Positions 1 to 60,410 of a stretch of DNA of 64,000 nucleotides are shown here, piece after piece. The notes under the pieces were generated by a model that did no database searches, had not been told where the DNA came from, and saw only the letters and a program-made list of their open reading frames with translations. A program made the translations under genes and the position numbers. Source of the stretch: Polytrichum commune (lineage: Eukaryota > Streptophyta > Polytrichopsida > Polytrichales > Polytrichaceae); the NCBI GenBank assembly GCA_950295325.1, contig OX485804.1:19036001-19100000 (forward strand), written 5' to 3'. Each line of letters starts with the position of its first letter. The stretch's first letter is position 1.

Positions 1-1755
1 TGTCGCAGCCTTCACATCCATTGCGCTGCTCCAAGAAGGCTGTCATTCGCAGTGATGACTTTGAGCAAAACCCTGTGGAGGAGAAATACAGGTATTTTTT
101 GATATCATCCTGGGTAGGCTTCATCCAGTGCCAAGTTGCTCATGCTGTCCCCAACATTCAACACTGCCAAAGCATACTCTTTTATTATGTTAAGACCTGT
201 TAATATTCATATTTCATTGGGCGAAGAGTTAATGCCGTCCAGATACAGAGATCATGCTGTAGTGTATTTGAAGTTTTGGAAAGGTGAGTTTTGAATAGCT
301 ATGGCTGTGGATGTTAATTGCAGCAATGAAGCCCAATGTTGTTTTTCTGGCAGGGTCTTTGCTGTGCGACTAGTATTAACTGGTCCGGCTCCTTGTGAAT
401 TGGTGGATGCTAAAATTTGTTTGACATTTCGAAACTTTGTCAAGCTTCCCTCAGGCTCTATGTTCTGTGCAACACAGGACCTTGAACTTGTTCGACCAGA
501 GGTAACATAAGCTGACACATCATTTTTCTAACTCAGTTGTCTACTTTACTGGTAGTTCAATTATTTTATAGAGCTTTGAAGCTTTAAATGTGTTAGTCCA
601 GGGCTGGAGTGATGGAGTTTTGATTATTTTTTGGTCTGAAGATTGTCTTCTTGACATATCACTTTCCCCAAAAACTTGTGTAGGTCTCTTACCTGCGGTA
701 TGGATTGATGGTGCGACACATCATTGACAAGAAAAGCCCTCTTTTGGGTCATACTATGGAAAGTCTCAGAGAAGGAGACGCTTCCTTCTCTCTTACCGTC
801 ATGGGATTAGAACGCACATCCATGCAACCAATTTTTCATCTGGAGGTGATTGGATCTCCTCTCTCGCATGTGTCACGTGTATTTGAGCCTTTTTAAGTGC
901 TAGTAGATTTCCTCTTCTGAGTCTTTTTAATTCTCAATTTCCATCAAAGTAATACTTCTATCAACTACTACCATTTTGAACCCAAAGATCAACCAAATTA
1001 AGGTGGAGAACATGAATTTTGAGAAAAACCCCCTGAGATCATGCTTAGTCTGTCTTCAATGTTGTCTCAGAGACTGATACCTCAATACTTTCTTGTAAGT
1101 GAGATATGTAATTCTCATCTTGTTTAAGAGGAAGGGAAAAAATATGCTCTAGTACATCAGCAACACATTGAGAATTTCTGGTAGGTGTTTAGCAATCTTC
1201 CAAATTGAGTTGTGAGAATGCCAGTCAGGATTGACTTGGACATTGGATTGCACACGCAGGATTATTTTGTTTGTGATGGGGATGTTGTATGGGATGGGGA
1301 CTACATGGATTTCATTCATATAAATAGAGACGGACAAAGGGTTTTGGACCATTCGAAGGTTGATCTTCTGAAGAGTTTCAAGGTGCAGTTTTTGACCTTC
1401 AGCTTGTGATTGTTTTTTTGTGTTCATCTCAATCCAAGGCTCACGTTACTTGTGGTGTAAATGTGTTGCCTGACCTTGAATCTATTTTATTTACCTTCAG
1501 ATCCACACAATTAGCTTGTGATGTATTGGAATCATACAGGTTGCAGGAATGGTCTCCCAGGCAATCAGTAGAATGGAGGCTGATGTTGCCAAACGCAAGG
1601 ATAATGAAGCCAAGGAGAGACAAAAACAAGCTGATGAGAAATCTGGAGACAAAGCTGAAGGATTGAAGAACTCAAAAGGGTGGTATGGAGCCCTTCGAGC
1701 TCGACCATTGTGGAGGTCCAAATCAACATCTTTCACTAGAGAGCCAGACTGGTGA
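1..1755 (+). CDS. Kir-type inward-rectifier K+ channel, C-terminal cytoplasmic part (5'-partial gene)
   Basis: Five exons join in phase: 1-91 (open at the window edge), 354-501, 684-845, 1260-1382 and 1540-1755 (stop TGA), giving 245 visible residues. All introns are GT-AG. The product matches the immunoglobulin-like cytoplasmic domain of the Kir/KirBac family: a CSKKAVI stretch like the bacterial FS..AV start, CELVDAKI (like the IVEA strand), RYGLMVRHIIDKKSPL (animal Kir: TIVHEIDEDSPL), then DYFVCDGDVVWDGDYMDF (like SYLANEILWG.RY/F) and a VLDHSKV strand (like VDYSRFH). The tail after exon 4 is charged and probably helical, rich in K, E and D. The two membrane helices and the selectivity filter must lie upstream, outside the window. 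Known for the family: tetrameric K+ channel gated through this domain. That this copy conducts K+ is inferred; without the pore, a pore-less or diverged relative cannot be excluded. Confidence 0.72.
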
Positions 1756-3803: not shown

Positions 3804-4646
3804 TCAATAAGGTGGCGGTGGTGACCCTCGGTGATGCTGCGGCTTGGGAGGTGGTGGAGCAACGTACGATCTAGTAGTTGGGGGAGGACACTTGTGGAAA
3901 GGCCATCCTAGTGGAGGCATGATGTGCCCCCCACCATGTGGTGGTGGAGTCTTGAGGGTTAGTGGCGAAGGAGGATGAGGCTTCAAGGTGCCATGTGATG
4001 GTGGTGGAGTCTTGGGGCTAGTTGGTGAAGGAGGAGGAGCCTTGAAGGTTCCATATGGTGGCGAAGCTATCTTGGGGGTTGGTGGAGGAGGAGACTTAAG
4101 GGTGACACGTGGTGGTGGAGCTATCTTCGGGGTTAGTGGAGGAGGAGACTTAGCGGTGGCATGGGGTGGTGGAGCTAGCTTGGGGGTTGGTGAAGGGGGA
4201 GAACTAGGAGGCTTGACAAGGGGGGTTAGTGGAGGACTAGGAGGAGACTTAGCGGTGGCATGGGGTGGTGGAGCTATGTTGGGGGTTGGTGAAGGGGGAG
4301 GACTAGGAGGCTTGACAAGGGGGGTTAGCGGAGGACTAGGAGGAGACTGAGCGGTGGCATGGGGTGGTGGAGCTATCTTGGGAATTAGTGGAGGAGGAGA
4401 CTTAGTGGTGGCGTGGGGTGGTGGAGAGATGGCAACGTCGGGGGATGGTGGACACAGCTCGGGACACAGCTCGGGCAGTGGAATAATGGTGATGAGCAGC
4501 TTGCGAGGAGGAGCTGGAGCCCAAGTATAAGCAGCAACTGGTGTAACTAGAGCACACACATCTGCCGCAACAAGAAAGAGCACCAGGAAGAAGACGGCAG
4601 CCATGGAGGCTGAATCGTTCGCCATTCCGCGAAGAGGAGTACCCAT
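3804..4646 (-). CDS. Secreted proline-rich / extensin-like cell-wall protein
   Basis: Single-exon gene, about 280 residues from the ATG at 4646 (273 from the alternative at 4625). The N terminus has a clear signal peptide: a hydrophobic stretch AAVFFLVLFLVAADVCALV followed by an alanine-rich cleavage area. The rest is a low-complexity proline-rich domain made of a repeated module of the form H-A-T-x-K-S-P-P-P, followed by TPK-I-A-P-P-P. Two adjacent 33-residue copies are nearly identical, so the DNA at 4170-4350 is a recent tandem duplication. Most blocks are SPPP; only two are SPPPP and there is almost no tyrosine, so this is a hybrid proline-rich/extensin-like protein rather than a classical crosslinking extensin. 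Secretion to the wall and hydroxylation and glycosylation of Pro/Ser are expected from the family. The longer in-frame start at 4775 is rejected because it lies at or before the likely transcription start. Confidence 0.8.
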   Translation of the reverse strand: MGTPLRGMANDSASMAAVFFLVLFLVAADVCALVTPVAAYTWAPAPPRKLLITIIPLPELCPELCPPSPDVAISPPPHATTKSPPPLIPKIAPPPHATAQSPPSPPLTPLVKPPSPPPSPTPNIAPPPHATAKSPPSPPLTPLVKPPSSPPSPTPKLAPPPHATAKSPPPLTPKIAPPPRVTLKSPPPPTPKIASPPYGTFKAPPPSPTSPKTPPPSHGTLKPHPPSPLTLKTPPPHGGGHIMPPLGWPFHKCPPPTTRSYVAPPPPKPQHHRGSPPPPY

Positions 4647-4779
4647 TTCTAGCAATCTGCAGCAGATCGATGTGTGTGATTGATGATTCAAGCTGCTGAT
4701 CAGAGCACACCGCGCGTTGATCCAAGCCCGCAGAGACGCTGCTGCAGCAATGAAGATGGTCGATGACTTCCCCACCTTC

Positions 4780-4810
4780 TCTCTCTTTCTCTCTCCAATA
4801 TATATAGATA
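4780..4810 (-). promoter_or_regulatory. TATA box and CT-rich initiator/leader of the proline-rich gene
   Basis: On the minus strand the sequence CTATATATATTGG (about 4797-4809) forms a canonical TATA element, followed by alternating GAGA/CT-rich tracts down to about 4780. Transcription would start some 30 bases downstream, near 4770, leaving a leader of about 125 nt before the ATG at 4646. Confidence 0.6.
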
Positions 4811-5849
4811 GAGAGAGACACTTGTGCGATTATGCAGCATGCGGTGACGGTGAGCGGCTTAATCGATCTCACCAGGCAGCAGCTGCAGCACTCTACCTGT
4901 TCAGGAATGCTGCTGACGTCTGGCGATCCGGATGGTCAGGCGCTCAGGCTCAGTGTTGTTACAGTGATAGAGAAGGTAGCATTGAGGTGAACAATCTTCA
5001 AGGTTGCTGGGATATAGTACTAGAGTTTGTGTAATTTAGAACGCCTCCATCCGGTTGAGGTTCGTAAATATGTAAGGTATGCGTGCCTAAATTGAACACT
5101 AGCGGTAGGCAAACGCCTATATTTGAATGGTATAGGAGAAGGCTTGTAGTTAATTAGGAATAAACACCATAAAGACAGGTGCCACAATGACATTGCAGTA
5201 TGTGCTCAAAACAAGGACGCTTTGACCTCTTATACCTTTCACATATCAACTCCAATTTTGACACATGAAACATTAATATTCGTGATTCATGATTGCTAAT
5301 TGGATGAAGCAATTCAAGATTATCCCTTCCAATGACCAAAAGACAGGTTAGATGTGATTACTGCTTGTTTTTATCCATCGATCAGTTCTGCTCTACTCCC
5401 CACTGAGGATATACACGTGTGCCACTATTTCTTGTGAATTCCACTGATAAGTACACTATATCATATGCACCTGACTTCTGCTACAAGTTCCCGTGATGCA
5501 CCTCTCTTCGCAGAATAAAATCGTAGAATAAAATTTGAGTCCGTGAAACCCAGCGAAGTGATCGAGTTCATTCATAGTGGCATTGCGCCCGTGATGACAT
5601 GCGTACTTCAAGCATGCAGATTCCACATTGATGCATTGCTTTGACAATTGCGCTGTCCTTCTGATTGAAGCTCTCCACTTCTCATGCGTCTGTCCCTGAG
5701 AAGCACATGTATGCCACCATCACTTGTCAAGATCATTGGCAGCTATGGCTTGCCAGAGGTACATAAAAACTACATCATAATTAACATTGTTATATCAGTC
5801 TAGAGTCTGCGAGTAGCGTGGCTCCACTTCCAGGAGTACTGTATTACCA

Positions 5850-5998
5850 TCGAGGGCTCTCTATTTCATCTTTCCATGTGCCAAAATGAAGTTTCCACGT
5901 GGGATACAAGTGGGATTATAGCGAAGTGGAGCATGACACATGGCAAATTTTGAGGGGAATTAATCATTTTTGTGTGTTGATAGGGAGCCCTCTACAAT
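5850..5998. mobile_element. Short TIR element (family M), copy 1
   Basis: Ends are inverted: the left end reads GAGGGCTCTCTATTTCA and the right end reads GGGAGCCCTCTACA. Internal motifs (gccaaaatgaagtttccacgtgg, broken here as gccaaaatg...cacgtgg; then agcatgacacatggca) recur at 25306-25446 in the opposite orientation and at 43757-43922. About 150 bp with no coding capacity, so a MITE-like element. Confidence 0.6.
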
Positions 5999-7989
5999 AC
6001 AAGGGCACCCTATGACACAATGCTGTGCATGTATTGTGTCATTAATTTGTACACCTTGTGAGCAAGAATCTTGATGTTCAAATGATGCATCCTCTCTTGG
6101 ACACTTGCATAAGGAGTTGAAAGGACTTGATATGTGGCCTAGCAATTTCGTTCTTATGTTTTTAAAAATAATAACGATGTTTTATTTTTGTTTAATCACA
6201 ATCATGAGGGTGATTTTGATTATCATAAATACCTTGATGATTTTTGATTGCTCTTAGTATATAGAGACCAAGAAGCGTATCCTAATTTGATACATAATCT
6301 GAATCTGTTGTAAGAAGAGATAGAGGATTTGTATGAGAAAACTTCGATGATGAAGCTGAAACTTGTGCTTCTAGAGATAAAGATCTATGAACAACCATTT
6401 GATCTCCATCAAAATCTATACTAAAACCTCCACAAAATAGAGGGCGCAAGTGAGTTTGGCATATTTTTTCTAAATATTAAAATAGGTTGAAATGCCACTT
6501 AGAATGCGGACCTATTGTGGGCAATTTCAACTTCACATGCAACCTTACATTGAACTTGTCAGACCTTTCACATATAACCAAGATTGGATATCTAGGTTCA
6601 CAAGTCTTGGATGTGGATGAGGGACTTTGATTGGGATAAATCAACCACAAATTTGAGAGGAGAGGGATGGTTTTTTTAAGGACATCTTTCCTCACCGGAT
6701 GAATGACACCTGTGTGTGTCATGAAACTCTTGCCGTTTTTGTGATCATTGTTTGTACTGTTTTGCAAAATATCAAAATGAGAAGTTATAGCAGGTAATGT
6801 TCTCTGAGGTACCAAAGCTTTTAAGGAGGTTGAAGATTTCCTCATGTACAAATCTACTACCTTTGGTGCATGTTAAAATTTCATAGTCTACCAAACTCTT
6901 TCTCACCTCCATAATGTGCACTGCTTTTTGGATGCAAGTCTTCTAAAAAAATGTCATGTAACAGCATGTCACTTTACCAAAAAAATATTACATAAACATA
7001 TATCAAGTTGCGTTGCAACCCCCAAAATGATCTTCTAACTGAATTACTTGTTTACTATATATAGGGCCTTGGAGGATCCAATAAAAGGAATATGGATTGT
7101 TTAAAATGCAATACATATATCTCATCATTCTAATATTGCTCAACGATGTGGATCCTCAAAATATAACAGTGGGATGCTGGAAGCTCAGTTAAAATTTGAG
7201 TCACCCTGCACAACATTTTGCAAATAGCGGAATCCTTCATCAAATGATTGGGGTTTTGTCCATGTCGGGAATTTGATGTGTTGGTTGTTCCCATGCTTGC
7301 TGACCTTTGGCATTCTATAAATTCCTATAAATGGATCAGATCGAGGTAAAGCCCTTCTCTTCTCTCTTAAATTGGAAGTACTACACCCTGAGCTTCTTAT
7401 CTTGACTGTCTAATTTTTGCACAAATTGCAGTAGTGTCACTTCATTCTACTCCACACGTGACACAAATTAGTAGTGCTAGCAAGTTCCTTTCACCGTTTA
7501 AACAAATGCAGTTTTCTACTAGGATTGAAATTTACAAAGTTTTTTGCTTGAATGCAAAAAAGAGTAAGATTCAACTTCTCAAAAAGGTTCACTTATGCGG
7601 GTACATGCACACCGGGAGTCCACCACATAACTCTTGTCGTCCAAAAATCAAGAAGTTCGTATTCTTCTTCATCATCTTCGTAAAGCCCACGTTGAATGCC
7701 CTAGTTGCCCAAATGCATCCCTCCTACATCCAAAGCTTCCATAGCTTCACTTAACCCAAAATGAAGACCATCCGGTTGGCCACCCACCGGAGAACCTTAC
7801 TAATTTTCATCATCTCCAAAGTTGTAGATTCATAATTGTGTCATTCTCCCCAACATCCTCTTCATAATCTTCCCAATTTGCTCCATGTTGAGGTCTTGCA
7901 CCAAGGTCCTATGCAAAGTGTTTCTCAACTTCTTGGATTGCCCAATCGTACATAAACTTTGCGTATGTGTGCAATTTTGAGAGGTTATA

Positions 7990-12100: not shown

Positions 12101-15100
12101 ATGTTACGTGAATGGTACCGACACACATATATCAATAATGATTTCAAAGAACTTCGATACCCAACCAATATCAATATAGTAACACCATACCAGACAACCA
12201 TTGATACTTGGTGAGCATCATCACAAGATGAGAGAATCTTTGCATACCAGAGTAATTATTTGAGTCAATATCATCCTACCACCATATTAGTACTAGGGTG
12301 ACTTTACCCAGGTATGAAGGCTCTTGGATTGTATATAGACCCAAATGACATCCAGAACACAAGCTCTTGTACCTTACTATTATCAAAGGATATATAAAAT
12401 CTTCATTATGTATACCCAAGTGGTATCAACAAAAGGTGATACAAAGTGAAATACAAGTAAGTATTAATTAATCTCCAATACAATCCAACACACACAAGTG
12501 GCTCTATTACCTCTAATTTCATGCAAAGAAGGATCTGAAAGAGAAGTATAGGCAACTTGAGAAGATGACCGCCTATGTCTTGGCGCCCACAGATACCATC
12601 TCCACTTTCATTGTCATCAGATCTCGATGTACTCCCATCATCTACACCTTCAGGCGTTGCTCTGAACAGTGTGTGAGGATTATATATAGGTAAACCTCCT
12701 GGACCTAGCTGGGGTGGATCTTGGTGAATAATAGAATTTGACCACTTAGTGCAGACCAGAAATGAAAAGCACTCTGCAATTCTGCACACAAACAGACAGA
12801 TAGGGCTATTCATAAGATACAGAACAGATTTACAATGCCAGATGACAATATGCAGACCTTGGAAGAGTTGGAAAGGATGACCAATGATTGAACTTAGCCC
12901 TTGAAGGACAAAGGGGCTGAACATACAACATATATACACAATTTCTACAAGCCTCGTCAAGTCTTGAAATTATTATTTTTTATACTTAAGAGTTTTGAGA
13001 CTTTATCTGGTATCATATCTTATATCAAGAAAAATATATATACTTATGATAATGTGTGAGATTGATGATCATAATACCAAGTATGTAATTGGGTCCCCAA
13101 GCTACCCAGGCTGTGTATTGGAACCCATATCTTCAATAACAAGAAGGTATTCAGCCGATTTAAAAAGTGCACTTGAGGAATGATCCATTGTTAGGTAGGA
13201 TCACTTTTGACACAATTAGCTCAAAATAAATTGATGTAGCTACTGCACGTTTTGTACATAGAGGGGGTTAATTGCTCTTTATGCACACAGAATCTACAGG
13301 AAGATGAGAGGACCTGCATCCACTCCAATTAGTTGACATAATAGCTAAAAACAGCAACCTTTAGCACAACATAGAGAGTAGTAATGTTCCTAAATGAATG
13401 CAGTTTTGTTTCACACATCACAAAGAATATCTTTTACAAGACACCAATGACGTACCCAAAGTTGATGAATAAATCCCACCAACCCAAGCCCTCCACATCT
13501 CCTGCACCACAACCAGAGATATTAGCATGCATGTTCAGCAGTTTAAGACAACACCACTAAGGCTTTTTCTTCTATCAAATAACACCATCGCAGTACAAAT
13601 AACAAAAGACCACTCCTCACTTTTTTTAACCTTTAGGCACAAAATCACAATAGTCATTGTTATACAATATTCTCTAACAAGAACTGCTGGTATTTGCATC
13701 GTTAAAACACCATAGGTTAGCATTGATGATATGTAACGAAGTATCACCACTGAGTTTGAGGAGAGTGAATATGGTTGCAGCCATAAAAAAGACCATGGAC
13801 ACTGCAACCCAGAAATGCTGCATACACGCACACCAGATGAGTACACAATAGAAAAGGACAATGTTATGTCAGAGTGGATAGGCCAAATTCAAACCAAACA
13901 AATCCCCACGTCAACAACCTCAAATTTATTGCAACAGCCTTCTACACTTTCCAGAATCCCCACAACCCTTTATTGCAAATGGTTTTCTGGTGACTTTCAA
14001 CAGTCACTCAGTGAAAGTTGAATAACTTCAATCACTAAAATGCATCCTGGGGCACATAGTTAAAACTTCAGTTACTAAAACATATACTTTGGAACATAGT
14101 TATAAGACCCTCCCATACTTCAAATGTGACACAATTGATGACCAAATATGACTTTATGATAACAAATACCACAGAAAGCCTAACAAACCAGTGGCTGCTC
14201 ATTGACATTTTTTAGGCCAACAAATGTCCTCGTTTTAATGGTCACATATTGGCCACTCTTTCAACGTTAACAGGGCAGTTGACAGAACTGTAATCAGTGG
14301 GTTATGTGTTGGACTTGTTCACAAGCACAACACAGTAAACTTTTCAGTAGGAAAATAAGGCTATGGAAGTAGAGTTAAATGGGATTCAGATACTTCAACC
14401 AGAGTCAGTACAAATTACAAAAGACCTGGGACAAAGAGAAACAAATCTAAAGAACAAGTGCACAGAGCATAGATCAAAATATAAACAAGGCCAGCTCAAC
14501 TAAGGATCAAGGTGAGTAACAAGCAACACACACATCCAGTACAGTATATATCTGAACTGTTTATAAGTACAAAATATAAACAGTGTGGCCTACACTATTC
14601 ATCGTCGACCCATAGCAATGAACATTAGTCTAACTGTTGTGGCCACACTTTCTTTCTAATAACATCTTAGCTTATTAATGTTTATAATCGTGGGCAACAT
14701 GATTTATCATGAACGTAAATTAATATGGGTCAGTAAATTATGACAATTGGCATAGACAACATGACAGATGGCACTAAGACAAGAGGCTTCAGTTTTTTGT
14801 AACAAGACAACACATCAATGTTAAAAAGTTTGATTGGTAATGTTGCCCATGATAAATATGTAACACATTGATTCTAATGCCACACTAAATCAGATATTTA
14901 CAGTAACAGGAACTTACAGGAAGGGTTTCCCAAATGGCTTCATCTGTCATGCTCTCCTCATCACTTGGCATAAGGGCCCTGCACATCCTGCTCGGCCAAG
15001 TCATTAAGCACCTCTAGTCATTCATCCAAAAAGCACAATATGACCCTTGAAATCGCTCATCTTCGCTTTGATGACATCCAGCTGAGGCAAATAATGTATA

Positions 15101-37040: not shown

Positions 37041-37398
37041 AGGTTAAACTAAGGAAAGCGCCACGTAGGCATGCGCTTGAGGACATGCGCACACGCAGGC
37101 TCCCTCACAGACAGGCTTCGATCCATCGTCGCACTTGAGATTCGCAACTCCGATGCTTTCTGGAGTTCCAAGCTTTTGATCGCTTGTGGTTGTCGAGGTT
37201 TCGTGGAACCTGGCGTTGCGTTGAGTCACGACCTAACTCTTGACACACTTACTTGTGCTGCAAAGGCACGCAGAACAAGATTATTCTTGTTGTGTTGTGT
37301 TTTGTTGTGTTGTGTTGTTTGTTGTTGTCCACTTAGGGTTTGTGGCAACTTCTTAGGCAGAGAGACAGAGTGGGGAAGGGAATCGATTTGAAGACGCG
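37041..37398 (+). promoter_or_regulatory. Upstream and 5' leader region of the V-ATPase D gene
   Basis: Less AT-rich than the DNA before it. It contains GCCACGTAGG, which has an ACGT core of the G-box type (37060-37069), and a T/G-rich TTGTG microsatellite at 37286-37328 just before the coding region. No clear TATA box is seen. The role of these elements is inferred from position. Confidence 0.4.
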
Positions 37399-38163
37399 AT
37401 GTCGGGGCAAACGCAGCGTCTGAATGTGGCTCCCACGATTACGATGATGGGAGTGGTGAAGGCGAGGCTGGTAGGGGCGACGAAGGGACATCAGCTGCTG
37501 AAGAAGAAGAGCGATGCGCTGACGATGCAGTTCCGACAAATCCTGAAGCGGATTGTGGAGACGAAGGAGGCGATGGGGGATACGATGAAAGCATCCGCGT
37601 TTTCGTTGACGGAAGCTAAGTATGCGGCAGGGGATAACATCAAGTATATTGTGTTTGAGAATGTGGATAAAGCCACGATTAAGGTTAGGGCTAGGCAGGA
37701 GAATGTGGCAGGGGTGAAGCTGCCGAAATTTGAGCATTTCACGGAAGCAGGGGAATCGAAGAACGATTTGACAGGGTTGGCACGGGGAGGCCAACAGATC
37801 CAGCTGTCGAGATCCGCTTTTGTGAAAGCGATTGAGGTTTTGGTGGAACTGGCGTCGTTGCAGACATCGTTCTTGACATTGGACGAAGCTATCAAAACCA
37901 CCAACCGTAGGGTTAATGCGCTTGAGAATGTAGTGAAGCCGAAATTGGAGAACACCATCACGTATATCAGGGGGGAGCTCGACGAGTTGGAGAGGGAGGA
38001 GTTTTTCAGGTTGAAGAAAGTGCAGGGGTTCAAGAAGAAGGAGGTGGACAAGCAGCTTGCAAAGAACAAGCTCTATTTGGAACAACAAGCAGCCAATGGT
38101 GGAACAATGCATTCCGTCAAATCTACTCAGGATGCAGAGAATGATGAAGATATTCTTTTTTGA
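37399..38163 (+). CDS. VHA-D: V-type proton ATPase subunit D
   Basis: Intact intronless frame of 254 residues starting MSGQTQRLNVAPTITMMG and ending DAENDEDILF. Subunit D is part of the central rotor stalk of the V1 sector, coupling ATP hydrolysis by the A3B3 head to proton pumping into vacuole, Golgi and endosome lumens. The sequence is diagnostic throughout: KARLVGATKGHQLLKKKSDA near the N terminus, LTEAKYAAGDNIKY in the middle, SLQTSFLTLDEAIKTTNRRV and NALENVVKPKLENTI in the C-terminal helix, then LDELEREEFFRLKKVQGFKK. Long N- and C-terminal helices form the expected coiled coil; length is close to other plant members (about 260). Codon use is more GC-rich than the flanks. An antisense 281-codon frame overlaps it and is a shadow. 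Confidence 0.98.
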   Translation: MSGQTQRLNVAPTITMMGVVKARLVGATKGHQLLKKKSDALTMQFRQILKRIVETKEAMGDTMKASAFSLTEAKYAAGDNIKYIVFENVDKATIKVRARQENVAGVKLPKFEHFTEAGESKNDLTGLARGGQQIQLSRSAFVKAIEVLVELASLQTSFLTLDEAIKTTNRRVNALENVVKPKLENTITYIRGELDELEREEFFRLKKVQGFKKKEVDKQLAKNKLYLEQQAANGGTMHSVKSTQDAENDEDILF

Positions 38164-55498: not shown

Positions 55499-58400
55499 AT
55501 GACGGGAGCGGTGAAGGAATTGAAGTCGAAGCAGGAGTTGGAGGAGGCAGTGAAGAAGAGTGTGGCGGTATTGCACTTCTGGGCAACATGGTGCGAGCCT
55601 TCCAAGGCCATGGAGCCTGTATTTGCACAGCTTTCCGTCGACGCTCCTCAGGCCAAATTCTTCCGAGTATGCACCCTCATTTCCTTCTCTTTCCTTTTGG
55701 TTTGTTTTCTTTGCCTTGTTTTGCTTCTTCATTTGGGAACACATTAGGCGCCCTAGCTTGCTGCTTGTTTTTGTGAAACAGTGTTGCAGTGGCGATGAGG
55801 TGCAAACATAGAAGCTTGGATACAATGTCACAGCGCAAACTTTCTGTTTTTGGTTCATTAGCACTAGTACCCCTCTCAAATGCCAACAAGATTTAGCACG
55901 AGGAAATAAAACAAGGGATCCACGTCATGACATAAGTGAAGTATTATTTCCCGACCCATGGCTGAAGTGCAAAATTGCGTTGATGACTGCACGATTGCAC
56001 ACAAACCGCCTTCCGTTTCTCAGACATCTAAGTGTTGCGGTGACTGACCTACTTGTGGCCGCCATCCATTCTCAAGGCTCTCTATTCTTTTCTTTTCTTT
56101 TCCTTGCCTTGCTTTTCCATCTGCCGTCTTTTCCTATTAAACCTTGTTACCCAACATTTGGGAGCACTCGATATAGAAATCTAACAAAGTGTTCATAGGG
56201 CAAAGGGCATAGGAGATTTGAGTCATTAGCTCACTAGTACCCCTCTTCCATGTCAAAAAGATCTTTCTATAGAAAGAAAACAAGGGCATGACAGAATTGA
56301 AGTATTCCCCGGCCACATGGCCTTAAGTGCAAACTTGAAGAGGGTTGCTCTCTTGTATGTGTCCACATAACTGTCTTTCGTTTTTCCAACATCTTAGTGT
56401 TGTGGTTTGCATCCGCCATCAATTTTCATCAAGTACAAGGGTAGTAGTCCCTACCTATCTCACATTGGGACCTTTATTGCCATGTAAATCAGTATCTGCT
56501 AGAAGCACGAAACAGGGTATTCTCTCAGTTAAACTAAACTTTTGGCTTTTGTTTTTCCTACTTGAGGGTTTTGTCTTATCTTTCCTGGTTTCCTTGTGCT
56601 GAAACTGAGGTCGTACTACACATGCCATACAACGTCTTGCTCGAATCAGTCTAGTTTTTGGTTGCTTCTCATTGATTGCTTTGTATTGAATACTCTAATA
56701 CCTCTAGATTATCTATCACTTTTGATTTTTATTCTATTGTGTACTGGTTACCATAAAGTTATCTGGAAGTGTTGTTTGAGCATCAATACTTACAAGGAAA
56801 TTTCATTTTTAAGCATATCAAATCAGAGGGTTATTTCCAGCGTCAATTTTCCGTTGTGGTTTTTGTATTAGACACTTTAACTGATATTATAGTAATGCAG
56901 CCTTGACACTTATCCTTGGGGATGGTTGTTATTATTCTGTGAGTAGGTTGAGGCGGAGGAGCAGCCTGAGATCTCAGAGGCTTATGACGTGGCTGCAGTG
57001 CCTTTCTTTCTGATCCTCAAGGTCTGTTTCTGTAATTGCAGCCTATCAGAAATCAACTCGTCCTTCAAGTGCACTTTTCAGATGTGATCGCCCTTGGATG
57101 CAAATACATACTTAGTATTTTGATCTTCAATATGTACTGAAAAAAGTTTCAAACCCAAGGGTGTATTTTTCTGATTTTAAGACTTGGTGAGGCTTGTAGA
57201 AATTGTGTAGATGGGTCGTACATTTAGCCCCTTGGTCCTTTGAGGGTAAGTCCCCAGCTTTGGCTATAACATTGGGTCCAGTTCTTAGCTCTGTGTCAGT
57301 AACCCCGTGGATGAAAATTCTGAAGGTGTTGGTTCTGAACATGTTATGCTTTACATGATACATTATAGTTATCCTCTAATTCAACATGAATTTTGGTTGG
57401 GAGTTGGTTATTTTGCATTCAACACCTTCCATGTTTGGTAGGTTCTTGGTGCATGCTTGGAGGTGGTGTGAAGGTTTAAACAGAGATGATTCTATATCGG
57501 TTCATTGAGGGTCAAACTCGTTTTGGCATGCCAAGTGGTACTAAAATGAGTTTGGCCCTCACTGAACTGATATAGGTTGTTCTTTGTTCAAAATTCAAAC
57601 ACTACCTCTGAGCATGCACCACAAGTGAAAAGAAACTATTAATTATGTATCCAAAACATCCAATGGAAAATCATAGGGACCAACTCCTGACATTCAAAAA
57701 GTCCCATTCAGTTAAAAGGATAATTCTATTGGTTGGGATTTTTCTGACATGGTGAGTTTATCAGGATAGTGTGGTGGTGGACAAGCTGCAAGGTGCAAAT
57801 GCCCCGGAGTTGGCAAACAAGGTGGCTAAGTGGGCAGGGCCTAACACCACCATGCATGAAGCGGCGCCTGCAAGTGCGGGACTTGCTTCCGGGGCCAATG
57901 TGATTGAAGCAGTAAAGAATGATTTAACTGCACATGCCACTCATCAACACACACTACCTGGAAAGACTGCAGCTCACAATAGTCTTGCGGAAGTTGAGAA
58001 AGGGGAGCTCCACAAACTGGTGAATTCCAAGCCTGTCCTGTTGTTCATGAAGGGAACTGCTCGAGAGCCTCGGTGCGGGTTCAGTCGGAAGGTTGTGGAG
58101 GCCTTGAATGCAGTTGGTGTGCAATTCGATACTTTTGATATTCTGAGCGATGAGACCGTGAGGCAGGGCTTGAAAACTTATTCGAATTGGCCCACATTCC
58201 CTCAGCTTTATGTTCAGGGTGAACTTCTTGGTGGGTGTGATATCGTCCTTGAGATGAAGGAGAATGGTGAGCTGAAGGAGGTCTGTGTTCTATTAGCCTT
58301 TCCCACCTATTCCTCTTTTGTGCTTTGCTTGTCTACGGGTGTATTACGTTAGGATTGAAGACCAAAGATAAATCCAAAATCAAGCGATCCTATTGGTGGA

Positions 58401-60410
58401 GAGCAAAAAATTGGACTTGAGGAGGTTACACTAAGGACAAAGATATGGAAAAAATGAAATGGTCCTAACGTGGCATTGTTTTCCTGCCAAAAACTCAAAA
58501 AAGTAACATTCTTAGCTTGGGTCCAATCTTGAGTCGGAAAGCAAGGTCCAGTGAGGGGTGTTTTGGACCCCAGGTTTTCTTGCACCCGGACTGTAATGTA
58601 AACCCACCCTCAGGGGCACTTTACACCAGAGCTTAAGGGCCCATGACCAAATCTAAAACCTGACATTGGTGGAAAATGCGGAGACCGGCCTACTTCATTT
58701 TACACTAAAGCTTGCAGGCCTCAGGACCAAGGGAAGTCTGAATGGGTGGATTCCTACATTGCATTTAATGGTTGATATCTCATGGTCTATTGGATATTGT
58801 GTCAAACTCACCTCAAAGAGGGTGGGTTCAACACAAACCTGGAGATCATGACACTTCAAATTCTCACAATCCTTGATTGTTTAGGGTCCACATGAATAGG
58901 TTGGTAATGAAATAGCATTCGGTTGAGTTTCTGGTTGCATATGTCCTTACACTACACTTGAAGGCCTGTGATCAGACAATTTCCATTATCCATGGTACGG
59001 CCTTCAGATGAGTTTCAAGAGCGCTCACAATCTCATCATGGGTTTTGGCCATAGTGTAAAAGTGGCCATATGTGTGAGATGAGCATGTGGCATTGGCCCA
59101 AAAACTGTGAGAGCCAATTATGGAGAGAATGATTTTGCAGTGACCATAGGAGTTGCTTTAATTTTGATAACTTTTAATCTTTGTTTATCCAGATACCTTG
59201 CATTTGAGCATGAAGGTTTTGTTGGCAATCTGTTTATTTCATGCATGTTCCTGAAAAGTTCTAAAACCTGCCAGATATTTGAAGAAAAGGGAGTCCTGAC
59301 TGTGGCACCTCCAATGGCCCAAACTTTTGCTGTTCCAGAACAACCTGCAACCCAACCTTTAACAACAGAAAATACAACTACCATGAATGACGGATCTGCT
59401 CTGAAGGCCAGAATACATGACCTTGTTAACGAACAGCCTATTATGTTGTTCATGAAAGGCAATCCTACAAATCCACAGTGTGGGTTTAGCCGAAAGGTTG
59501 TGCAGGCACTTGCTGAAGAGCACTTAGAATACGGTAGCTTCAATATTTTGAGTGATGAGGATGTGAGGCAAGGTTTGAAGGAATACTCCAACTGGCCCAC
59601 TTACCCCCAACTCTACGTCAACGGCGAGTTCATTGGTGGTTGTGACATTATTCTGGAGATGCATCACAACGGCGAGTTGAAGGAGGTGGGTCACATTCTA
59701 AGAGGCCTGAACATGCCCTCTTGAATGTCCTCTTGTGAACATTCTTGAATGCCCTCTCAGCCCTTGAATGTCTAAGAGGCGACATGCCATGCAAAGGGGT
59801 TCAAGATTGCTTCTTGATTTTTTAGCTAAAAGTGTCAAAAGCGACCCTACCTAAAAATAGCCCCTCCACACACACACACACAGATATATCTTATGCATAA
59901 TTCCAATTACAGCATACATATATGTAGAATGAAATATAGAGAGATTTGAGCTTGTGCTTCAAAGGTTAACAGCATTGGATGCAATTTGTGTAGCAGTCTG
60001 GTTCCTTTGTTCTTTGCAAGATTAATTTATCAATCTGCAGTTAAATGCCACTTAACTCCATTTGCATGTACCAGGTTCTGGGCGAGAAGGGGCTGCTACC
60101 AAACGAGAGTTTGGATAGTCGACTGAAGAAGCTTATATCATCGTCAAACACAATGTTGTTCATGAAAGGCACACCTGACGAGCCTCGATGTGGGTTCAGC
60201 ACCAAAGTTGTTAATGCATTGAGAGAGGAGGGTATTGACTTTGGTAGCTTTAACATTTTGGAAGATGAAGAGGTTCGGCAAGGGCTCAAAACCTATTCAA
60301 ATTGGCCGACTTTTCCTCAACTCTACTATAAGGGCGAGCTACTTGGGGGTTGTGACATTGTGATGGAAATGAAGGCCAATGGAGAGTTGAGGTCAAGTTT
60401 GAGTGAATAG
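55499..60410 (+). CDS. GRXS17: Monothiol glutaredoxin GRXS17 (thioredoxin-like domain plus three glutaredoxin domains)
   Basis: Exons 55499-55666, 56947-57021, 57765-58280, 59275-59685 and 60075-60410; all junctions are phase 0 and GT-AG, giving 501 residues. Residues 1-81 form a thioredoxin-like domain with WCEPS (C32), where the second active-site cysteine is replaced by Ser, as in the family. Three glutaredoxin domains each carry CGFS (C185, C322, C429), MLFMKG/LLFMKG before it, a YSNWPT(F/Y)PQLY strand and a GG(C)DI motif that binds glutathione. Exon edges fall between domains, one exon per glutaredoxin module. Cytosolic/nuclear GRXS17 proteins bind 2Fe-2S clusters with glutathione and serve iron-sulfur delivery and redox control; that is known for the family, not shown here. 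Start chosen because MTGAVKEL aligns with plant starts; an in-frame ATG-less extension upstream lies in the tandem repeats. Confidence 0.96.
55930..56420 (-). repeat. Two inverted units of repeat family G in GRXS17 intron 1
   Basis: AGTGAAGTATTATTTCCCGA and GAATTGAAGTATTCCCCGGC start two units about 350 bp apart, each followed by CAAA(A/C)TTG and an ACATCT(A/T)AGTGTTG motif. Read inverted, they match the tandem units at 16855-17520. Confidence 0.5.
57369..57723. mobile_element. TIR element (family I), copy in GRXS17 intron 2
   Basis: Left TTATCCTCTAATTCAACATG and right (inverted) TTATCCTTTTAACTGAATGG, with a shared GGAGTTGGT further in. 355 bp, matching 16128-16457. It ends 41 bp before exon 3, placing element sequence next to the branch-point region. 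Confidence 0.65.
58352..58609. mobile_element. PIF/Harbinger-like MITE (family 4), copy 2, in GRXS17 intron 3
   Basis: The right end ATGTAAACCCACCC matches the right end of copy 1 (GTGTAAACCCACCC). The left end GGATTGAAGACC is shorter in similarity. Flanks are TTA and TCA. The outer bases abut family 1 copy D directly. Confidence 0.55.
58613..59067 (+). mobile_element. PIF/Harbinger-like MITE (family 1), copy D, in GRXS17 intron 3
   Basis: Diverged copy of A: GGGCACTTTACACCAGAGCT at the left, then GGGCCCATGACCA, CATTGGTGGAAAATGCGGA, ACCTGGAGATCATG and TTTAGGGTCCACATGAATAG in the same order, with GTGTAAAAGTGGCC at the right. About 455 bp. It ends about 210 bp before exon 4. Confidence 0.65.
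59866..59882 (+). repeat. CA microsatellite in GRXS17 intron 4
   Basis: Eight CA dinucleotides in a row, followed by short TA-rich sequence. Confidence 0.9.

Follow-up and report, generated by a model that had tools for sequence, protein, structure and literature searches.

The exons at the start of the analyzed region raise the question of whether a plant genome encodes a Kir-type potassium channel. The region, C2:19036001-19100000 in a 408-Mb assembly of Polytrichum commune, spans 64 kb and is referred to here as the window. Its first exons belong to a gene that we call alpha1, the window gene:

Window 1..91, + strand: 3' portion of the exon after TM2 (VFARMSQPSHP...), placed by GT-AG borders and frame.
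Window 354..501, + strand: exon with the first strands of the Kir-type cytoplasmic domain, placed by borders, frame and KirBac alignment.
Window 684..845, + strand: cytoplasmic domain exon with HIIDKKSPL, placed by borders, Pfam and KirBac alignment.
Window 1260..1382, + strand: cytoplasmic domain exon with DVVWDGDYMDF and VLDHSK, placed by borders, Pfam and KirBac alignment.
Window 1540..1755, + strand: last exon, with the charged tail and the TGA stop, placed by borders and frame.

As had been proposed in a preliminary description of this DNA, the visible exons splice in phase; all five have canonical GT donors and AG acceptors, and one frame runs throughout and ends in TGA. The exon at 1-91 starts 11 bases upstream of the window, and its part within the window aligns with the KirBac region after TM2. 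The exon at 354-501 is also conserved in a second copy of the gene on contig C5. Sequence fetched across the window start (L003; a window position equals the L003 position minus 8000) contains the remainder of the gene model:

L003 4942-5544 and probably 5844-5974, upstream of the window: N-terminal exons, likely part of the window gene.
L003 6358-6657, upstream of the window: core exon.
L003 7160-7356, upstream of the window: exon with the slide helix and TM1.
L003 7597-7718, upstream of the window: exon with the filter region and TM2.
L003 7989-8091: exon running into the window.

The joined core protein has 456 residues, and its pore helix spans the exons at 7160-7356 and 7597-7718. A candidate exon (GTPQWLLYV..., L003 about 7826-7917) that would follow TM2 and precede the VFAR exon was omitted from the model because skipping it yields a KirBac-like SGAVFAR junction. 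Parts of both N-terminal exons are matched at the C5 paralog with 39-45% identity, with the second match overrunning the exon borders. Joining N-terminal exon 2 to exon 3 as modelled breaks the frame, and an alternative acceptor that restores it was used as a search query only. Both exons likely belong to the window gene, their exact junctions being provisional. The predicted protein begins with a hydrophilic N-terminal part, followed by a slide helix, TM1, a pore loop, TM2 and a KirBac-like cytoplasmic β domain. The pore module that the preliminary description proposed to look for upstream of base 1 is found there, with two membrane helices and a pore loop that are colinear with KirBac.

We searched the assembly with the core protein and located three further multi-exon loci, at C5:43.75 Mb, C7:26.19 Mb and C1:47.75 Mb, with core identities to the window protein of 83, 46 and 44%, respectively. 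Spliced alignment produced open models for these paralogous loci. As modelled, the moss family divides into the subfamilies alpha (the window gene and the C5 copy) and beta (the C7 and C1 copies) and numbers at least four genes; there may be more, because a genome search with the Pfam model IRK_C works exon by exon and missed all four. The structure of the window gene is not a product of chance, since the C5 copy shares its core exon structure at the identity given above and synonymous changes far outnumber amino-acid changes. All four genes have two introns at matching positions and in the same phase, one of phase 1 after SGA in TM2 and one of phase 2 before VFAV/VLMA, indicating that the family descends from an intron-bearing ancestor; the remaining introns differ between alpha and beta. 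The charged C-terminal tail had been considered lineage-specific. It is absent from both beta paralogs, which as modelled end shortly after the domain, but it is common to the window gene and the C5 copy. Repeated stretches of amphipathic appearance, e.g. SESVTSTVSEVTESVQSTAAQVTESVQSTANKV, precede the slide helix in the N-terminal exon of the beta genes (L019, L020). At C2:2243717-2243905 (L021:718-906), query residues 9-70 from the first exon of the window gene have an isolated match with 55% identity. In searches with the core and N-terminal queries no other exon of the window gene was matched at this place, which is probably a captured or decayed fragment.

We compared the window protein with 177,635 PDB sequences by phmmer, using the single protein as query, and found that residues 123-378 match KirBac3.1 at E 1.1e-12. 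The Kir-type cytoplasmic domain that had been read from the window exons is confirmed by this comparison, in which the alignment to KirBac3.1 extends along the domain. A profile of the four family members matches KirBac3.1 at E 4.2e-15. Pfam reported IRK_C alone for the window protein, at 17 bits (17.0, E 0.0049) against a curated cut-off of 22.5. The IRK_C profile thus finds the domain in the window protein below its cut-off, as it does in the C5 alpha copy (19.7 bits), and above it in the beta pair (29.8 and 27.3 bits). The Pfam IRK transmembrane model has no match at E 1 or better in any of the four proteins, a null result to be read with the HMMER filters in mind, which discard most matches above about E 0.1. 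Neither NCBIfam (nothing reported for the window protein) nor the TPK-type ion-channel model Ion_trans_2 (no match at E 1 in the Pfam search) offered a different assignment.

Profile-to-profile alignment of the family with three KirBac proteins (hhalign) gave a probability of 99.1 and P 7.7e-19 over 256 columns. The cytoplasmic part alone reached P 2e-13, and the membrane part alone P 3.3e-4 with a modest probability of 38. Against 14 KirBac proteins, the membrane part alone aligned colinearly at P 6.3e-7 with a probability of 92. Eight control comparisons gave local P values of 0.093 to 0.61. Seven of them were run against the three KirBac proteins (the reversed full profile, the reversed membrane part at 0.22, and five column shuffles of the membrane part at 0.093-0.61) and the eighth against the 14 (reversed membrane part, P 0.25). 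TM1 and TM2 appear as hydropathy peaks directly before the Kir-type domain in all four members. By these alignments, the window protein is a distant relative of the bacterial KirBac channels. It shares with KirBac3.1 (PDB 4lp8) and with the proteins of Caballeronia and its relatives a colinear slide helix, TM1, pore loop and TM2, the latter ending in VFAR-S-P, and a cytoplasmic domain with H-ID--SPL and an acidic-hydrophobic-W motif. The family differs from KirBac in its low identity of about 25%, in lacking the TxGYG filter and, by alignment, the pore-helix E/Q, and in having a longer TM1-pore loop, an extra N-terminal part and, in alpha, the charged tail. The animal Kir channels among the PDB matches (Kir5.1, Kir4.1, Kir2 and Kir6.2) resemble the family in a weak match of the cytoplasmic domain and in some cases also of the pore and TM2, but score 28.3 bits or less, compared with 59 bits for KirBac3.1.

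At E 1e-6 or better, the family profile matches 9 of 299 genomes sampled from the phylum to which a Caballeronia genome belongs, with a best value of 7.8e-22. A pattern scan of genome contigs, which was a single scan with poor patterns and no census, matched 54 stretches, four of which encode relatives with 25-27% identity (Caballeronia, Burkholderia and Pararobbsia). Among 72,556 plasmid records, two contain a match to the window protein, both of them from Caballeronia; one Synechocystis plasmid record searched with the family profile scored 33 bits, compared with 56 and 60. One scan of viral contigs with two short patterns found no relative.

We next turn to the pore, where the family departs from these relatives. 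The pore string reads LSLSTTFGGSP in the alpha pair (FLYALSLSTTFGGSPV) and LSLSTGLQPEL in the beta pair (FMFSLSLSTGLQPELAP). All 15 bacterial ORFs examined, several of them near-identical, have a [TS]xGYG filter and a pore helix with S-[VI]-[EQ]-T-[LMF]. This pore-helix E/Q is a defining feature of the Kir/KirBac family. In the moss proteins, S-[VI]-[EQ]-T is replaced by ALSLST or SLSLST, a placement that depends on the alignment. The T-x-G-(Y/F)-G filter that the preliminary description proposed to look for between the helices is missing from the window protein and from its three paralogs, and no in-frame TxG(Y/F)G occurs in the four gene regions scanned. We considered that a filter had been missed through a wrong intron, and scanned the four gene regions in every frame of both strands for [TS]xG[YFL]G. 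The sole match in the family genes is TKGFG in alpha1 (window about 1334), which lies within a cytoplasmic exon, in another frame and next to a stop. The absent filter is not a splicing artefact, since the beta pore helix, filter region and TM2 are located within one exon. Around the altered strings, the family conserves the scaffold LSLST ... SP..L..AN.N.L.AQ..F.FLS.AVFAR.SQPS.P..CS. The predicted alpha and beta proteins have each lost, on a shared scaffold but in a different manner, the filter motif and, by alignment, the pore-helix E/Q. The label of an inward-rectifier K+ channel given in the preliminary description is therefore not supported, as the potassium filter is absent from all four proteins. 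Judged by its predicted pore, the family is not to be classed as a K+-selective Kir channel.

We estimated selection on the genes by the Nei-Gojobori method. The alpha pair (428 codons) has a dN of 0.168 and a dS of 1.127, corresponding to a ratio of 0.15 (bootstrap 0.105-0.206). In the beta pair (398 codons), dN is 0.274 and dS 2.217, near saturation, so the ratio of 0.12 comes with a bootstrap interval of 0 to 0.19 that is of little use. Regional ratios, given without error bars for regions that were named after the models had been seen, are in alpha 0.25 for the part before the slide helix, 0.06 for TM1, 0.61 for the TM1-pore loop, 0.05 for the pore plus TM2 (52 codons), 0.09 for the cytoplasmic domain and 0.19 for the tail. 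The corresponding beta values are 0.24 before the slide helix, 0.12 in TM1, 0.04 in the pore plus TM2 (51 codons) and 0.11 in the cytoplasmic domain. In dN itself, alpha TM1 (0.056) and the alpha pore plus TM2 (0.058) are about equal. The altered pore is among the best-guarded regions in both pairs and is the best-guarded one in beta, and its low dN/dS speaks against decay.

The moss genome also contains a canonical Kir gene:

C2:27064708-27066240 (L004:3706-5241), - strand: one exon of 511 codons with the filter TIGYGG, matching Pfam IRK and IRK_C.

This intronless gene lies 8 Mb from the window gene and exceeds both cut-offs, with 56.4 bits for IRK and 84.7 bits for IRK_C. Its position, C2:27.065 Mb, is the only place in the genome at which both Pfam models are above cut-off, in searches that ran exon by exon and so do not count split genes; a second copy of it did not turn up in the assembly. 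Its best PDB match is Kir6.2 at E 9.8e-37, with KirBac3.1 at E 4.5e-29. A tree of 21 rows places the four family genes in one clade (100/100), whose stem is 2.39 changes per column long, and joins the canonical moss Kir to Kir6.2 (100/98), a placement that carries a long-branch warning. A single clade of the family and the moss Kir, a group named after the first tree had been seen, is rejected (p-AU 0.009), and a clade uniting all eukaryotic rows (the family, the moss Kir and Kir6.2) has a support of 51/32, which neither establishes nor rejects it. The canonical gene thus has the Kir fold in common with the window family but differs in its TIGYGG filter, its lack of introns and its separate branch. 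The preliminary description had set its find against flowering plants. This contrast is not direct, because the host is most likely a moss; yet a canonical Kir-type gene is present elsewhere in the genome, and it may be the more direct answer on whether plants have Kir channels.

It is very likely that the four predicted proteins combine homology to the Kir fold with an altered filter. Four subunits would, by homology, assemble around an axis as in Kir channels; from the relationship to KirBac, TM2 is expected to line the path and the cytoplasmic part to form a gating ring, and movements of the cytoplasmic domain would open TM2 as they do in Kir channels. The rebuilt filter, TTFGG or TGLQP in place of TxGYG, would then give a cation pore of low or different selectivity that is not restricted to K+. 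A changed cation selectivity appears most likely because the filter is rebuilt and the pore-helix E/Q is lost. We incline slightly to the view that the family proteins conduct ions, and give about an even chance to a Kir-fold membrane protein whose pore would most likely conduct cations with little or different selectivity. Our proposal that mosses keep a Kir-fold family with the K+ filter rebuilt in two ways, forming pores of new selectivity (non-selective cation, Na+ or other), is tentative. It is also possible, if somewhat doubtful, that these are non-conducting Kir-fold proteins with a permanently closed pore, acting as partner subunits that steer the canonical Kir or another channel, or as membrane sensors. 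The loss of the filter and, by alignment, of the pore-helix E/Q in all four proteins is consistent with such a role, as is the presence in the same genome of a canonical Kir with TIGYGG as a possible partner, and in alpha the constraint on TM1 matches that on the pore region (0.06 versus 0.05). However, in both pairs the lowest dN/dS is found in the pore plus TM2, which is more than a scaffold seems to need, and a partner subunit is harder to reconcile with the distance between the family and the canonical Kir, whose union in one clade is rejected at the p-AU given above. We deem a pore of changed selectivity likelier than a non-conducting partner because the filter has been replaced and the region is under strong constraint.

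The view taken in the preliminary description, a K+-selective Kir channel whose filter is spelled in an unusual way, would fit the Kir-type domain, the colinear pore module and the T..FG-like string (TTFGG) kept in alpha. It is nevertheless unlikely, as TTFGG lacks the first filter glycine and beta is without any GYG or GFG. That the genes are decaying or pseudogenes is very improbable: the divergent filter and the Pfam score below cut-off would agree with decay, but the joined core exons are open in four genes and the overall dN/dS of 0.15 and 0.12 points to constraint. Least credible of all is an unrelated β-sandwich protein beside a chance hydrophobic stretch, which the weak single-sequence Pfam score could suggest; here the membrane part by itself gives a colinear alignment to 14 KirBac proteins (P 6.3e-7, reversed 0.25) and also matches the three KirBac proteins (P 3.3e-4, reversed 0.22, shuffles 0.093-0.61).

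The literature on plant K+ channels places these genes as follows. One survey states that genes for TM-P-TM type K+ channels are apparently absent from Physcomitrella patens and Selaginella moellendorffii (PMC3410407). The plant protein KCO3 is called a 'Kir-like' member of the TPK family (PMC8619664) and derives from TPK2 via duplication and partial deletion (PMC3410407). It resembles the window protein in the name and, by description, in its layout of one pore and two helices (PMC8619664, PMC3410407), but for the window protein the Pfam search reported IRK_C and no TPK-type ion-channel model. A table in a 2024 review covering land plants and charophytes has SKOR/GORK, BK, TPK/KCO and two anion channel types, and no Kir column (PMC11617655). 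Among the literature matches listed, from a search that mostly left subscription papers and preprints outside, there was no account of Kir-type genes in a moss and no description of a two-helix channel with a rebuilt filter in plants. Automatic database annotations may well list such moss Kir genes. With one canonical and four diverged Kir-type genes, P. commune contrasts with the survey statement on P. patens. If the diverged family conducts, it would represent a natural experiment on a Kir pore with a replaced filter and a novel route for ions in an early lineage of land plants.

Several other loci were seen in the window and the assembly. Adjoining the Kir-like gene, a frame at window 3804-4829 (-) encodes proline-rich repeats (PPPHATAKSPPP) after a hydrophobic stretch and is extensin-like in appearance, with no Pfam match at E 0.001. 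An open frame at window 12406-12969 (-) matches Tmemb_185A over part of its length (38.1 bits) and is probably one exon of a membrane-protein gene. The intronless open frame at window 37357-38163 (+) matches ATP-synt_D with 225.9 bits and probably encodes V-ATPase subunit D. Two successive glutaredoxin domains at window 57756-58352 and 59083-59724 (+) are perhaps exons of one monothiol glutaredoxin gene of the GRXS17 type. Contig C8 has open psaA/psaB-type frames and rbcL and was taken as the plastid genome. Its psaB is most similar to three sequences in photosystem I entries of Physcomitrium patens (8htu; 6l35 and 7xqp; 7ksq and 7kux), for which reason a flowering plant was rejected as host. 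Fragments of plastid rbcL and psaA/psaB are also found in large contigs, at C3:14137891, C4:47707642, C5:337267 and C2:70106055, where they probably represent plastid DNA copied into the nucleus.
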